64,000 nucleotides of DNA from Fodinisporobacter ferrooxydans. GTDB lineage: Bacteria; Bacillota; Bacilli; Tumebacillales; MYW30-H2. Under the pieces are notes generated by a model. The model was given only the letters and a program-made list of their open reading frames with translations, made no database searches and was not told where the DNA came from. Positions 15,217-19,804 of the stretch are shown here, in pieces. The DNA is taken from NCBI RefSeq assembly GCF_022818495.1, contig NZ_CP089291.1, positions 3,055,501 through 3,119,500 of the forward strand, given 5' to 3'. Position numbers and translations under genes: made by a program. Position 1 is the first letter of the stretch; each line of letters begins with the position of its first letter.

Positions 15217-15235
15217 TCGAGGGGAGATGGGAAAC

Positions 15236-15526
15236 ATGATTCGCAATCATGTTCGGAATTTTATGGAAGAAATCGTGTGGAATCAATTGGAAGACTTGCT
15301 TCCTACAATGCCTCAAGTATGCAGTTGCGACATATGCTTGCAAGATATGTTTGCATTCGCGTTAAATCAACTGCCTCCCCGCTATATCGCAACAACAGGC
15401 GGAGAAGTATATACCAAATTGAAGTTGCTGGAGGCGCAGTACCATGCAGATATTTTAGCTGCGCTGACAAAAGCGGTCAAAGCGGTTTCGGAACATCCAA
15501 GACACGACGCTTCCGTGGATCAGTGA
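15236..15526 (+). CDS. ComFB-family protein (96 aa)
   Basis: A short protein matching the late-competence ComFB family: NFMEEIVWNQLEDLL at the N-terminus, paired cysteines in CSCDICLQDMFAFALNQLPP, and RYIATTGGEVYTKLKLLEAQ. In B. subtilis comFB lies in the comF operon; related proteins have been reported to bind cyclic di-GMP. Here it sits alone behind panE, so competence involvement is not implied. ATG 15236 has GGGGAG about 10 nt upstream; ATG 15227 is too close to it. Confidence 0.85.
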   Translation: MIRNHVRNFMEEIVWNQLEDLLPTMPQVCSCDICLQDMFAFALNQLPPRYIATTGGEVYTKLKLLEAQYHADILAALTKAVKAVSEHPRHDASVDQ

Positions 15527-15609
15527 ATAAAGCAGAAACAGCAGAATAGAAACAGAGTCTACTATTCGAATATGCGTAAAATACGAATACTACGCATTCC
15601 GTATAAAAG

Positions 15610-15642
15610 AACCTTCCTTTCTATGCCGTGGAAAGGAAGGTT
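15610..15642 (-). terminator. Hairpin terminator between comFB-like gene and hxlR
   Basis: AACCTTCCTTTC (15610-15621) pairs perfectly with GAAAGGAAGGTT (15631-15642). The reverse strand continues into CTTTTAT, so it mainly terminates hxlR. On the forward strand only three T residues follow, which gives weaker termination for the ComFB gene. Confidence 0.8.
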
Positions 15643-15998
15643 TAGTCCGTTTTGGCAGCGGAAGGATACACACCGGGACATTTAATATCCTGTTTTTTCT
15701 GGTGTTCTGCACCCCAATCCCGCAAAGCTTCCAACACAGACTTTAGGGTTTTTCCGCTCTCTGTCAGCGTATATTCGACACGCGGCGGAATTTCCGGATA
15801 GAGAGTTCTGGTCACAACTCCTTGTTCTTCCAACTCTTTCAATCGATCTGTCAATAATTTTGAGCTGATCGGGAGAGTTGCTGCAATCTCCGTAAAACGT
15901 TTTTTTCCTGCGAATAATTCACGCAATATTAAAAGGGTCCATTTTTTACCGACGACTCCTAATGTAAACTCAATGGGACAAAGATCTTGATCATGCAT
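15642..15998 (-). CDS. HxlR-family transcriptional regulator 1
   Basis: A 118-residue winged-helix regulator. DQDLCPIEFTLGVVGKKWTLLILREL is the HxlR N-terminus, followed by RFTEIAATLPISSKLLTDRLKELEEQG (recognition helix region) and the wing YPEIPPRVEYTLTESG. The single Cys at residue 6 is at the position used for thiol redox sensing in YodB, CatR and HypR. ATG 15998 follows AAAGGTGCG; a longer frame to 16127 exists but lacks a matching N-terminus. It is transcribed away from bshC, and a palindrome overlaps the bshC-side promoter, so it may control bshC as well as itself. Confidence 0.9.
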   Translation of the reverse strand: MHDQDLCPIEFTLGVVGKKWTLLILRELFAGKKRFTEIAATLPISSKLLTDRLKELEEQGVVTRTLYPEIPPRVEYTLTESGKTLKSVLEALRDWGAEHQKKQDIKCPGVYPSAAKTD

Positions 15999-16172
15999 CG
16001 AAATCGCACCTTTTTTGTAGCTTTCGTTTTGGTTTTGTAAATTTCTTATTTGAAGGTTCCATTGTCGCTTTCTTGTACACATGTTGCGTCTGGATAACTC
16101 ATTTTCTTTTAGTATACCATATTTCAAGAATACGAGTTGGATTTGGCGGGAAAAGTATACAACCCATGTTAC

Positions 16173-16201
16173 TTTACTTTTTAAAGTATATGAGGTATAG
16201 T
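16173..16201 (+). promoter_or_regulatory. Promoter with overlapping palindrome upstream of bshC
   Basis: TTTACT (16173-16178), a 17-bp spacer, then TATAGT (16196-16201). The inverted repeat TACTTT-TT-AAAGTA (16175-16188) overlaps the -35 element and spacer. Its position next to a divergent HxlR regulator makes it a candidate operator; HxlR-family sites are short dyads of the TACT...AGTA kind. Confidence 0.5.
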
Positions 16202-16245
16202 ATATTTTGGTATTCGTAAACGAATGATTCGATTGAGGTGAGTTT

Positions 16246-16350
16246 ATGGCGAAATTATTTACACTTTACCCATTATGGGCAAAACACGCTGCTATCGCTT
16301 TCGGAGCGGAATCGGTATTGACCGGTCAATATCGGAGGGCGTTTTCATGA
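16246..16350 (+). CDS. Small leader ORF coupled to bshC (34 aa)
   Basis: ATG 16246 follows GATTGAGGTGAGTTT, a good ribosome binding site. The frame encodes 34 residues (MAKLFTLYPLWAKHAAIAFG, then AESVLTGQYRRAFS). Its TGA overlaps the bshC ATG as ATGA, the classic coupling arrangement. It is the first ORF after the bshC promoter. No family is recognised. It may be a regulatory leader peptide or a small protein; a chance ORF cannot be excluded. Confidence 0.5.
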   Translation: MAKLFTLYPLWAKHAAIAFGAESVLTGQYRRAFS

Positions 16351-17966
16351 GGATTGAACGTTCGAATGTAACGGATCGTTCATTTTTAAACATATATGAA
16401 CAGGATTTTTCCCAAATATCCAATCTTTATAGCTGGAATCCGCACAACGAAGCAGACTGGCAAGCCCGCGCCGCCGAGTTGCAGTCTCGCTTTGCCGATG
16501 CAGAATATAGAAATCGCCTGGCGGATGCGCTTGTTGCCTACAATCGCTCCATTGGTGCCGGATCGCAAGCATTGGCATCGATCGAACAACTTCGCAATGG
16601 TGCATTGGCGATTGTTACGGGTCAACAGGCGGGGCTGTTCACAGGTCCCCTTTATACGATTTATAAAGCGATCACTGCCGAGTTATTGGCAAACGAATAT
16701 CAGCAGCGGTTGGGAGTGTCCGTGATACCGGTATTTTGGATTGCTTCGGAAGACCACGATTTTTTGGAAGTCAACCACATCTTTGTGCAGACATCAGAAT
16801 CCTTGTCCAAAATCGAATGGTCGAAGCAGGAAACAAGCCGAAAATCAATCGGTCATATCAAAGTTCCGGAACAGGAAGTCAATCGCCTCATCGACGAATT
16901 AAAAGCATCCACCATCGAAACGGAATTTCGGGAACAGTTGCTGCAAACCATTTATGAATGTTGGCAATCCACCGATTCGATGGCGGATTGGTTTGGGGCG
17001 TTAATGGCGCATATTTTCGAGAACAGCCGTCTTGTATTTCTGAATCCGATGTTGCATGAATTTCGTCAATTGAGCGCTTCTGTTTTCACACAAGGGATTG
17101 AATGGAATGAAGCCATTCGGAACGCCGCTTTTCAGGGAGCCGAGCAAGTTCGCAGATGCGGGTTGGAACCACAAGTTCATATCATGGGGCACAGTAGTTT
17201 GTTATTTCTGCAAATGGATAATGGCAGATACCCATTGGATTTCATCGATGGCCGATTTGCGGCGAGGGGAACAGAATATTCTTGGTCGGGGTCGGAGCTT
17301 GTGCAAATCGCCCGCACCGCTCCGGAACGGATGAGTTCAAATGTATTGCTCAGGCCGATCGTCCAGGATCATCTGCTTCCGACTTTGGCATTCGTAGGCG
17401 GCGGCGCGGAAGTCGCCTATCACGGAATGCTGAAGGAACTGTTTCATGTGTACGGCATTTCGATGCCGATCATTATGCCGCGCATTTCGATCACAGTCAT
17501 TGAAAAAGCAGCGGCAAAAAACAGCAAAAAATACAATGTTTCCATTGATTCGATCGTGTCGGGACAGGATCCTTTACAGCAGGTTTTGAGCCAGCTGGAT
17601 CCGGTAGGCGTCGACACGGTGTTTGCATCGTTTTTCGAGCAAATCGACAAGTTGTACGTGAAGTTAAAGGAGGATCTCGTGCAGATCGATCCGCAACTGA
17701 AAAAATTATCGGAAGAAAATCAACAATGGGTGCAACAACGGGTTGAATCATTGCGACAAAAAACATACCAATTTCATGAACAAAAACATGAGATTGCCGT
17801 ACGGCAACTGCAAAAACTGACTGCATCGCTATATCCGAACGGGCATCTGCAAGAACGGGTATTGAATATTTTTCCATTCTTGATCAAATATGGCCCACAG
17901 TTTGTTTCGGATTTGCGTGATCACTTGGAGAGCGGGAACTATACACATTGGTATCTCTATCTATAG
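16347..17966 (+). CDS. bshC: Bacillithiol biosynthesis cysteine-adding enzyme BshC
   Basis: BshC is thought to add cysteine to glucosaminyl-malate, the last step in bacillithiol synthesis. The 539 residues equal the usual length. Landmarks are RNGALAIVTGQQAGLFTGPL, YTIYKAITA, PVFWIASEDHDFLEVNH (HxGH-like region of the nucleotidyltransferase-like core), LLRPIVQDHLLPTLAFVGGGAE and MPIIMPRIS. The C-terminal third is a coiled coil (LKKLSEENQQWVQQRVESLR) followed by a conserved NIFPFLIKYGP end. Start ATG 16347 overlaps the upstream small ORF, and CGGAGGGCG supplies the ribosome binding site. The downstream exporter follows about 155 nt later. Confidence 0.95.
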   Translation: MRIERSNVTDRSFLNIYEQDFSQISNLYSWNPHNEADWQARAAELQSRFADAEYRNRLADALVAYNRSIGAGSQALASIEQLRNGALAIVTGQQAGLFTGPLYTIYKAITAELLANEYQQRLGVSVIPVFWIASEDHDFLEVNHIFVQTSESLSKIEWSKQETSRKSIGHIKVPEQEVNRLIDELKASTIETEFREQLLQTIYECWQSTDSMADWFGALMAHIFENSRLVFLNPMLHEFRQLSASVFTQGIEWNEAIRNAAFQGAEQVRRCGLEPQVHIMGHSSLLFLQMDNGRYPLDFIDGRFAARGTEYSWSGSELVQIARTAPERMSSNVLLRPIVQDHLLPTLAFVGGGAEVAYHGMLKELFHVYGISMPIIMPRISITVIEKAAAKNSKKYNVSIDSIVSGQDPLQQVLSQLDPVGVDTVFASFFEQIDKLYVKLKEDLVQIDPQLKKLSEENQQWVQQRVESLRQKTYQFHEQKHEIAVRQLQKLTASLYPNGHLQERVLNIFPFLIKYGPQFVSDLRDHLESGNYTHWYLYL

Positions 17967-17973
17967 ACAAGAC

Positions 17974-18120
17974 ATGTTTCCCAAAGAAATGTGGTCGAAA
18001 GAAATGGTGTTAAATGAAATGCCGGTTAAAGAAATGGATGTTATTTCTTTGTTTGTCAATTATAATAAGATCCGTGTGATTTTTAGGCGCAATCAAGTGG
18101 TTCGCAAGTATGGAGGATGA
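17974..18120 (+). CDS. Possible small ORF carrying KEM-type tandem repeats (48 aa)
   Basis: An ATG frame between bshC and the MFS gene encodes MFPKEMWSKEMVLNEMPVKE and then MDVISLFVNYNKIRVIFRRN, ending QVVRKYGG at a TGA just before the MFS start. Residues 4-23 come from four 15-bp degenerate repeats. No convincing ribosome binding site precedes the ATG, so translation is doubtful. The repeat itself is clear; the gene is low confidence. Confidence 0.25.
   Translation: MFPKEMWSKEMVLNEMPVKEMDVISLFVNYNKIRVIFRRNQVVRKYGG
17983..18042 (+). repeat. Four degenerate 15-bp tandem repeats
   Basis: Units AAAGAAATGTGGTCG, AAAGAAATGGTGTTA, AATGAAATGCCGGTT and AAAGAAATGGATGTT lie head to tail with exact 15-bp periodicity. 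The core (AAW/AAA)GAAATG is conserved and the last six bases vary. They lie in the gap between bshC and the exporter, 18 nt before a TATAAT (18061-18066). Confidence 0.75.
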
Positions 18121-18122
18121 GC

Positions 18123-19316
18123 ATGGAAGGAGCGTTAGGGAAATTAGATAACAGGCGCTTGCAAGTATGGCAAGTGTCAAATCTCGGCTTTGCCCATATG
18201 GTAAATGATTTGATGACGACAGGATTGGTACCTGCATTATTGCCTCTGTATAAACATGCGTTTCATTTGAATTATACGCAAACGGGCTTAATTGTTTTTA
18301 TGTCGTATCTCACATCTTCTGTCATGCAGCCGATTTTTGGATATTTTACCGATCGCAAGCCGAAACTCTGGCTATTGCCGGCGGGTGTCTTCCTTTCCTG
18401 TCTGGGGCTTGCTCTATCTGGGATTGCACCATCATTGCCGTGGGTATTGGTTTTCGTGGCTATTTCCGGATTGGGTTCAGGCGCGTTTCATCCGGAAGCA
18501 TCAAGAGGCGCACACCTGGCGGCAGGTCGGGGAAAAGGATTGGCGCAGGCGATCTTTCAGGTCGGCGGCAATGCAGGTCAGGCGTTCGGTCCTTTGATGA
18601 TTCCGTTGTTCCTGATGGCGACTGGAATTCGCGGAGTCATGTGGTTTTTGGCGTTGGGTGTATTTGTTTTTGTAGTATTGTGGCGTTTGCTGCCATGGTA
18701 TCGAATGCGAATGGAACAAGAGCAAAAGCGGAAACGCACAATTGAAGGAAACAACCGCATCTGGGCCGTCATTTTGCTGGTGTTTGTCGTCATTCTCAGA
18801 TCCTGGTGCCAGATTGGCGTCTCCGGTTTCCTTCCGTTTTTTTATCAACAGCAGCACATGTCGTTAAATACAGCGGAACTGTTCAATTTTTTGTTTTTAG
18901 GCGCAGGAGCCGTCGGTACGTTCATCGGCGGCACAATGTCAGACCGGATTGGGAAAAAATGGCTGTTGCTCGGCTCGATGCTGCTGTCTGCACCGTTCGC
19001 CTTTTTGCTGCCAAAATTGCACGGAACACTTGCGGCTATCGATTTGATAGCGTTTGGATTTCTCGTTCTGTCGTCATTTGCTGTAACGGTGGTCTATTGC
19101 CAAATGCTCTTGCCAAAAAACATTGCCATGGCATCCGGGTTGATGATTGGGTTTGGAGTAGGCGCGGGAGGCATTGGCGCAACCATGCTGGGTTGGATTA
19201 CCGATCATTTTGGCGTTGGAGCTGTTTTTGATTTTATTGTGTTGTTGCCGCTATTAGGTGCAATCATCAGCGCTTTTCTTGTAAATGATCAAACGCTTAT
19301 AAAAAAGCAAGCGTAA
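18123..19316 (+). CDS. MFS transporter, fosmidomycin-resistance (Fsr) type
   Basis: A 397-residue major facilitator with about 12 hydrophobic segments. The N-terminal FAHMVNDLMTTGLVPALLP and GLGSGAFHPEASRGAHLA are hallmarks of the Fsr/FosR subfamily of drug exporters. The inter-domain loop is basic (RMRMEQEQKRKR), and GGTMSDRIGKKWLLLGSML is the second MFS signature loop. ATG 18123 is 6 nt after GGAGG; an earlier ATG at 18117 touches that site. A perfect TATAAT lies at 18061-18066, with a poor -35. Position between bshC and a second HxlR regulator suggests thiol or electrophile stress regulation, but the substrate is unknown. Confidence 0.88.
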   Translation: MEGALGKLDNRRLQVWQVSNLGFAHMVNDLMTTGLVPALLPLYKHAFHLNYTQTGLIVFMSYLTSSVMQPIFGYFTDRKPKLWLLPAGVFLSCLGLALSGIAPSLPWVLVFVAISGLGSGAFHPEASRGAHLAAGRGKGLAQAIFQVGGNAGQAFGPLMIPLFLMATGIRGVMWFLALGVFVFVVLWRLLPWYRMRMEQEQKRKRTIEGNNRIWAVILLVFVVILRSWCQIGVSGFLPFFYQQQHMSLNTAELFNFLFLGAGAVGTFIGGTMSDRIGKKWLLLGSMLLSAPFAFLLPKLHGTLAAIDLIAFGFLVLSSFAVTVVYCQMLLPKNIAMASGLMIGFGVGAGGIGATMLGWITDHFGVGAVFDFIVLLPLLGAIISAFLVNDQTLIKKQA

Positions 19317-19336: not shown

Positions 19337-19377
19337 AAAAACCGTTCAATCGAGTTGCGGCGATTGAACGGTTTTTT
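19337..19377. terminator. Bidirectional terminator between MFS gene and hxlR 2
   Basis: AAAACCGTTCAATCG (19338-19352) pairs with CGATTGAACGGTTTT (19361-19375) across an 8-nt loop. T runs follow on both strands, so it serves both convergent genes; it includes the hxlR stop codon. Confidence 0.92.
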
Positions 19378-19687
19378 ATTGAAACCATATATTTGCCCAT
19401 TTTTGCAATTCATTCATCGAGGTTTCCAACGCTTTTCCTTTTTCGGTCAATTCATATTCGATCAGTACGGGGATTTCTGGGAACACCGTACGTTTTACAA
19501 TGCCTGCAGTCTCCAATTCTTTCAAACGTTCAGCGATCATACGGTCACTCATATTTGGAATCACTTCCGCAATGTCTTTAAAACGCTTGGGGCCTGATAG
19601 GAGTACTCGAATGAGCAATCCGGTCCACCGTTTTCCCAACAGTTCAAAGGCGGCCTCAAATTTGGGGCACATTTGCAAATGATCCAT
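19376..19687 (-). CDS. HxlR-family transcriptional regulator 2
   Basis: A 103-residue winged-helix protein: MDHLQMCPKFEAAFELLGKR, WTGLLIRVLLSGPKRFKDIA, then MSDRMIAERLKELETAG and the wing FPEIPVLIEYELTEKG. Like the first HxlR gene it has one N-terminal Cys (residue 7), again the YodB-type redox position. ATG 19687 follows TAGGTGGTGATAGGA; a GTG four codons earlier is too close to the site. On its strand TGGTATTAT (19709-19717) is an extended -10. It converges on the MFS gene and is divergent from mraZ; autoregulation and control of the exporter are inferences. Confidence 0.88.
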   Translation of the reverse strand: MDHLQMCPKFEAAFELLGKRWTGLLIRVLLSGPKRFKDIAEVIPNMSDRMIAERLKELETAGIVKRTVFPEIPVLIEYELTEKGKALETSMNELQKWANIWFQ

Positions 19688-19804
19688 TCCTATCACCACC
19701 TATTTTACATAATACCATAGATCCTATTGAAAAATAAGTATCGATCAGTCGATTTGTCTCCTGGATTTGTGCTTCAGTGCGGCAAAAGGAAATTCAGCAG
19801 TTTT

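Follow-up and report, generated by a model that had tools for sequence, protein, structure and literature searches.

An HxlR-type operator at the bshC promoter, probably inherited from a deleted OYE gene

In Bacillus, Spx governs the bacillithiol genes according to the available part of PMC4360819, and the locus described here raises the question of whether a regulator encoded beside bshC could control bacillithiol synthesis as well. In the window, the whole 64-kb stretch of DNA analysed, hxlR1 (15642..15998, minus strand, start codon ATG at 15998) encodes a 118-aa HxlR/DUF24 regulator carrying Cys7 and Cys107, and bshC (16347..17966, plus strand) encodes the cysteine-adding enzyme of bacillithiol synthesis. 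The gene layout and the matches of HxlR1 to PF01638 (E 2.4e-32, 111.1 bits against a cut-off of 20.8) and of BshC to TIGR03998 (508.9 bits against 265.8), PF10079 and PF24850 agree with the sequence-only reading that an HxlR-family gene is divergent from bshC. The region is directly preceded by comFB (15227-15526, plus strand), convergent with hxlR1, and a terminator-like stem-loop of 16 pairs lies between the two (15609..15643, a consensus match only, on the plus strand); hxlR1 is followed by a 247-nt intergenic region, a 34-codon ORF (16246..16350, plus strand) to which the Shine-Dalgarno-like GAGGTG belongs, and bshC, whose start codon overlaps the stop of the ORF (ATGA). Of 87 other bshC loci, 4 likewise have comFB in the vicinity, every one of them in family f48. 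We suggest, with a probability of roughly three in four, that HxlR1 represses bshC from an operator inherited from an OYE gene and is released by thiol oxidation, so controlling bshC together with a tandem pair of OYE genes elsewhere in the genome. Direct control of bshC by HxlR1, as far as sequence can indicate it, is likely.

The bshC-side promoter-like site, a consensus match only, consists of a -35 TTTACT (16173-16178) and a -10 TATAGT (16196-16201) separated by 17 nt (16173..16201, plus strand). It is the sole plus-strand match of this kind in 15500-16500, where both strands together give 4 against a shuffle mean of 2.4 (sd 1.7), no clear excess. That an inverted repeat overlaps this -35, as had been proposed, is borne out: TACTTTTTAAAGTA is present at 16175-16188, over TTTACT. 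Perfect 6-bp inverted repeats occur, however, in 53% of shuffled 247-nt intergenic regions when the gap may be 0-12 and in 17% when it is at most 2, and TACTTTNNAAAGTA has a single location in the 4.86-Mb genome, the reversed control also giving one per strand. Beyond chance at the bshC promoter are the four AAAGTA/TACTTT half-sites in the intergenic region, against 0.35 in shuffles (fraction 0.0005, for a half-site that itself came from the tested sequence), and a 21-mer common to orthologous loci. This 21-mer, GTTACTTTACTTTTTAAAGTA (16168..16188, plus strand), has the core TACTTT-N7-AAAGTA (16170-16188) and extends over the -35 and into the spacer; the half-site count also picks out an extra AAAGTA upstream of it (16152..16157, plus strand).

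The orthologous loci define what the element is. A search with HxlR1 of 398 genomes of the class placed seven genomes of one same-order family, f5, far above the rest at 75-79% identity (72-81% over aligned segments), the next best matches being about 60% identical; all genomes compared lie outside the window genome's own family. TTACTTTAC stands beside hxlR in all seven f5 genomes: complete in the six in which hxlR and a gene for an OYE-type NADH:flavin oxidoreductase are divergently arranged, and reduced to one half in G008, whose locus has lost OYE and whose retained hxlR is divergent from mraZ. Over its 21 bases the operator of the window is identical at 20 to that of G009 and at 16-17 to those of the other five OYE loci, and in each of the six the element contains a -35-like TTTACT, followed after 16-17 nt by a -10-like hexamer (read by eye). 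Because these six loci conserve TACTTT-N7-AAAG with a varying spacer, we reject as the operator the 6-2-6 palindrome that the sequence-only reading had singled out; it covers half of GTTACTTTACTTTTTAAAGTA, in the wrong register. The neighbourhood resembles that of the window in lying close to mraZ, with panE near hxlR in all seven 20-kb stretches and accD in five. Among the five homologues of about 60% identity (G032, G081, G052, G033 and G067; four of these loci were covered by the matrix scan) there is neither a full operator nor an adjoining OYE gene, and G081 has a half-site.

We built a matrix from the six f5 OYE operators, excluding the window and weighting three near-identical operators at one third each. 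Scanned over the 64 kb, it places the bshC promoter first, with 26.9 bits at 16168, and the next separate site at 13.5 bits; on the independent-base background that underlies all our matrix expectations and p-values, sites of 26.9 bits are expected 5e-5 times in the window and 0.004 times in the genome. Conservation of the operator is in this respect a result read directly from sequence. One could still suppose that the resemblance is accidental and that HxlR1 and bshC are functionally unconnected, given that the 6-2-6 palindrome alone is within chance and that the gene pair is not conserved, but the matrix result, together with the remnant of an OYE gene to which we now turn, makes this scarcely credible.

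The remnant is the 34-codon ORF, which has no Pfam match. Its residues 9-33 score 27.6 bits against an HMM built from 21 OYE C-termini, and the best of 20,000 shuffled versions (18,773 scored) reaches 10.9 bits; the C-terminal ends read WAKHAAIAFGAESVLTGQYRRAFS in the ORF and FAKTAAIALGAQLELPNVYKRAF in the G011 OYE. The start of the ORF (MAKLF) alone gives 1.1 bits, equalled by 331 of 14,750 scored shuffles, which is not significant. The ATG of the ORF lies 78 nt from the operator start; in the six f5 OYE loci the corresponding distance is 64-78 nt. The C-terminal match and this spacing therefore indicate that an OYE gene once stood between hxlR1 and bshC. By its sequence, the ORF is that gene reduced in frame to its ends, and the C-terminal segment identifies the deleted gene as an OYE of the YqjM/NamA class. 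The match to OYE C-termini also led us to discard the idea of a conserved leader peptide.

Most simply, the ancestor would have had the order OYE-bshC-mraZ, with hxlR divergent from it at least in the lineage that f5 and the window share. Family f5 would then have lost bshC, G008 afterwards the OYE gene at this locus, and the window lineage the body of OYE, in that order and direction as far as the present loci suggest. bshC occurs in 2 of the 14 genomes of the order, the window's own and G006, so no f5 genome has it. The OYE scar and the operator found in OYE-bshC operons elsewhere (see below) together argue that bshC inherited the HxlR/OYE promoter. If so, the locus illustrates clearly how the deletion of a gene can change a regulon: a target is cut out, its promoter and operator stay, and the next gene inherits both. 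In G006 and in f48 loci bshC and mraZ are neighbours; in the window an MFS transporter gene (18117-19316) and a second HxlR gene, convergent with it (19376-19699, minus strand), sit between them.

Elsewhere in the window's own genome, a pattern search finds one exact match, the bshC site, and places with one mismatch at 3591082, 4662771 and 446302; with up to two mismatches the counts are 9+9 against 30+22 in the reversed control, so that the genome as a whole is not enriched. The site at 3591082 lies just upstream of tandem OYE genes (3591171-3592148 and 3592347-3593360). Its score of 23.7 bits, with about 0.06 such sites expected per genome, supports on sequence grounds an operator at the tandem OYE pair; the matrix scan gives no match before the second gene of the pair. 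The place at 4662771-4662789, which is flanked by genes for an EamA-type transporter and a peptidyl-prolyl isomerase-like protein, reaches 17.9 bits, for which about 5 are expected per genome (scaled from the per-locus figure), and is a candidate HxlR1-type operator only; that at 446302 falls inside a coding frame and was taken as chance. The genome holds all three bacillithiol genes, with BshA (531.7 bits) and BshB1 (288.3 bits) both over their cut-offs, and among them the matrix scan finds the operator at bshC only, the best match at the bshB1-bshA loci being a poor one of 8.5 bits, a score that chance would produce about 0.8 times per locus. In the 13 order genomes G001-G013 neither BshA nor BshB1 reaches its cut-off, and bacillithiol synthesis in the order looks patchy.

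Further afield we compared 87 other bshC loci, 29 of them with 1.5-kb flanks and 58, picked one per genus, with 3 kb upstream. The sequence-only reading had made conservation of the hxlR-bshC pair a test of itself, and here it fails: hxlR adjoins bshC in none of the 87 loci, with one weak match (E 8e-4) in L132. We consider this test too strict: relatives keep both the regulator and the operator, but what lies behind the operator is another gene. What survives of that reading is a role of the neighbouring HxlR protein in controlling bshC, favoured by an operator common to OYE promoters beside the orthologues and by the OYE scar; its YodB assignment (see below), palindrome register and pair conservation do not. 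panE lies near bshC in 46 of the 87 loci. An OYE gene lies immediately upstream of bshC in six of them (G217, G270, G386, G341, G332 and G350), and G377 and G297 add such operons from outside the set. Within 150 nt of OYE, the operator is found with uncorrected p of 0.0003 in G350, 0.002 in G332, 0.004 in G386, 0.013 in G270, 0.026 in G341 and 0.029 in G377, the last two sharing one site, so that five of the six loci among the 87 have a site at uncorrected p<0.05; G217 (within 150 nt of OYE) and G297 have none. OYE genes of family f3 give uncorrected p of 0.0001 in G004, with a weak HxlR-like match (22 bits) about 3 kb from OYE, and 0.06 in G005, and five OYE genes unlinked to bshC (G006, G001, G003, G002 and the second in G008) have no site (p >0.4).

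At the 87 bshC promoters themselves, 10 have p<0.05 (4.4 expected), 4 p<0.01 and 1 p<0.001, in scans for which some start codons were guessed by script. In G235 the operator stands directly before bshC (22.7 bits, p 7e-7) with TTTACT-17-TAACAT, and the 5.6 kb examined around that bshC contain no HxlR gene. Three further f11 bshC promoters (G261, G042 and G169) have no operator site. Of nine f48 genomes with bshC, six had the locus retrieved whole, and in each of these six stretches the top-scoring match, at 10 to 19 bits, precedes either OYE-bshC or bshC. The f48 and f11 genomes with the operator at bshC have no HxlR gene nearby, and a search of genome contigs with BshC gave no match. We tentatively extend our reading to a clade of Bacilli, at odds that we place just short of even: bshC, the final step in making bacillithiol, would belong to an HxlR-controlled electrophile regulon whose regulator, OYE and bshC formed a single ancestral unit; in the window's genome OYE would have been removed from within this unit, the scar, if still translated, would hand ribosomes on to bshC, and a direct, Spx-free loop would run from thiol sensor to thiol synthesis.

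These loci also bear on two other accounts of the element. HxlR1 might mainly serve the tandem OYE pair, with Spx setting bshC as in B. subtilis and binding at bshC, a relic, having little effect. bshC gained its promoter by deletion, as the scar attests, so the arrangement need not be adaptive, and Spx does control bshC in B. subtilis in the portion of PMC4360819 available. The bshC site is nevertheless the sole exact pattern match in the genome, as close to G009 as 20 of 21 bases and undecayed, unlike that of G008, and the element also precedes bshC or OYE-bshC in the G235 and f48 loci, which renders a relic quite unlikely. Alternatively the element, lying in the intergenic region that hxlR1 shares with the bshC side, might only autoregulate hxlR1. 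Such a role we regard as very improbable: the same element precedes the tandem OYE pair at another place in the genome, it precedes bshC in G235 with no HxlR gene in the stretch examined, and it is halved in G008, where OYE was lost but hxlR kept.

The regulator itself is an HxlR-family protein by sequence, and not the YodB-type sensor first supposed. Its top PDB match is YybR/HypR (4a5m, E 4e-24), and YybR/HypR, YtcD, HxlR and one more entry all rank above YodB (5hs7, E 9.8e-21); we dropped the YodB identity on this ranking, the YodB-like protein of the window being the product of the second HxlR gene (YodB in PDB, E 1.3e-34). The "YodB-type N-terminal Cys" of the sequence-only reading thus exists as Cys7, but the residue is family-wide: among the best 80 of 559 relatives kept from a search of genome contigs, at most 58% identical, its column holds Cys in 75, another letter in 2 and is not covered in 3. 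More distinctive is the C-tail Cys107, which accompanies the N-terminal Cys in HxlR1 and all seven orthologues and is absent from the four aligned homologues of about 60% identity and the four aligned paralogues. The quinone-sensing DUF24 repressors YodB, QsrR and CatR share with HxlR1 the HxlR-family fold and an N-terminal sensing Cys, and their targets include flavin and quinone reductases; they differ in that HxlR1 is nearer in sequence to YybR/HypR and YtcD, and that neither bshC nor OYE is among their known regulons as described in the source text available. YodB, a repressor, forms disulfides between Cys6 and Cys101 or Cys108 of the other subunit, an arrangement resembling Cys7 and Cys107 of HxlR1 (PMC6798810, available in part). 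HypR of B. subtilis, the best PDB match, has the N-terminal Cys in common with HxlR1, Cys7 aligning with it, and differs in its targets, in being activated by oxidation according to the accessible portion of PMC6943732, and in its "RRICP" Cys, a position that is not Cys in HxlR1 in the PDB-match alignment.

We hypothesize that the HxlR1 lineage controls an OYE-type flavin reductase via TACTTT-N7-AAAGTA over the -35 of its target, and that bshC would have become the first whole gene of that transcript when OYE was cut to the 34-codon scar. Reduced HxlR1 would most likely occupy 16168-16188 and block RNA polymerase, which the position of the operator over the -35 and part of the spacer fits. Once Cys7 is oxidized or alkylated, perhaps with formation of an intersubunit disulfide to Cys107, HxlR1 would come off the DNA and BshC would increase; since the tandem OYE pair carries the same operator, the cell would step up electrophile reduction along with bacillithiol synthesis. 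The circuit from thiol sensor to bacillithiol synthesis would in that case be one of feedback. We infer binding of the operator, thiol sensing and thiol-switched repression by HxlR1, with activation as for HypR the main alternative. HxlR and HypR are activators in B. subtilis in those parts of PMC7835342 and PMC6943732 that are available, so the sign may be wrong, and HxlR1 might activate bshC as these proteins do their targets, YybR/HypR being its nearest solved relative and HxlR a positive regulator (PMC7835342, same portion). A dimer over the -35 and spacer is however more likely to block polymerase, and the C-tail Cys recalls the repressor YodB (PMC6798810, as above), which leads us to view activation as unlikely.

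Thiol-switched repression of bshC by HxlR1 would differ from the Spx system of B. subtilis. There, as far as the available text of PMC4360819 and PMC6943732 describes it, thiol stress likewise raises bshC, through Spx control of bshA, bshB and bshC; but Spx is a global activator of all bsh genes, whereas here a local DNA element serves bshC and OYE and not bshB1-bshA. A second parallel is nemR-nemA-gloA of E. coli, in which, in the material available on it, an electrophile-sensing repressor adjoins an OYE gene that is followed by a gene for thiol-linked detoxification. NemR is of the TetR family, thus of another family than HxlR1, and the third gene encodes a glyoxalase rather than thiol synthesis. 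For S. aureus, the accessible part of PMC9152700 links an OYE to redox balance that depends on thiols, so that grouping OYE with bshC is a sensible arrangement. A search of literature mostly outside subscription papers, available in part, gave no link of HxlR to bacillithiol or bshC, of OYE to bacillithiol or HxlR, or of YqjM to YodB; the paper matched on HxlR with bshC names bshC, in the portion available, as an Spx gene. A dedicated operator of the HxlR type, on bshC as well as on OYE-bshC operons in further families, would, if our reading is correct, constitute a second, local route beside Spx that ties thiol supply to electrophile reduction.

Two minor observations concern dyads. Upstream of 76 of the 80 diverse HxlR homologues, dyads fall into several motifs, and TTACTTT-N8-AAAGTAA dyads, mainly in Bacteroidetes-type records, are suggestive only. 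Within the OYE scar, in a leader RNA whose folding does not surpass that of shuffles (z 0.19), the perfect 16-bp palindrome TATTGACCGGTCAATA (16316-16331) stands immediately before the bshC Shine-Dalgarno and may or may not be a second operator. A palindrome that long arises in 1.25% of shuffles of the 348-nt region, and one copy with 2 mismatches is present elsewhere in the genome.
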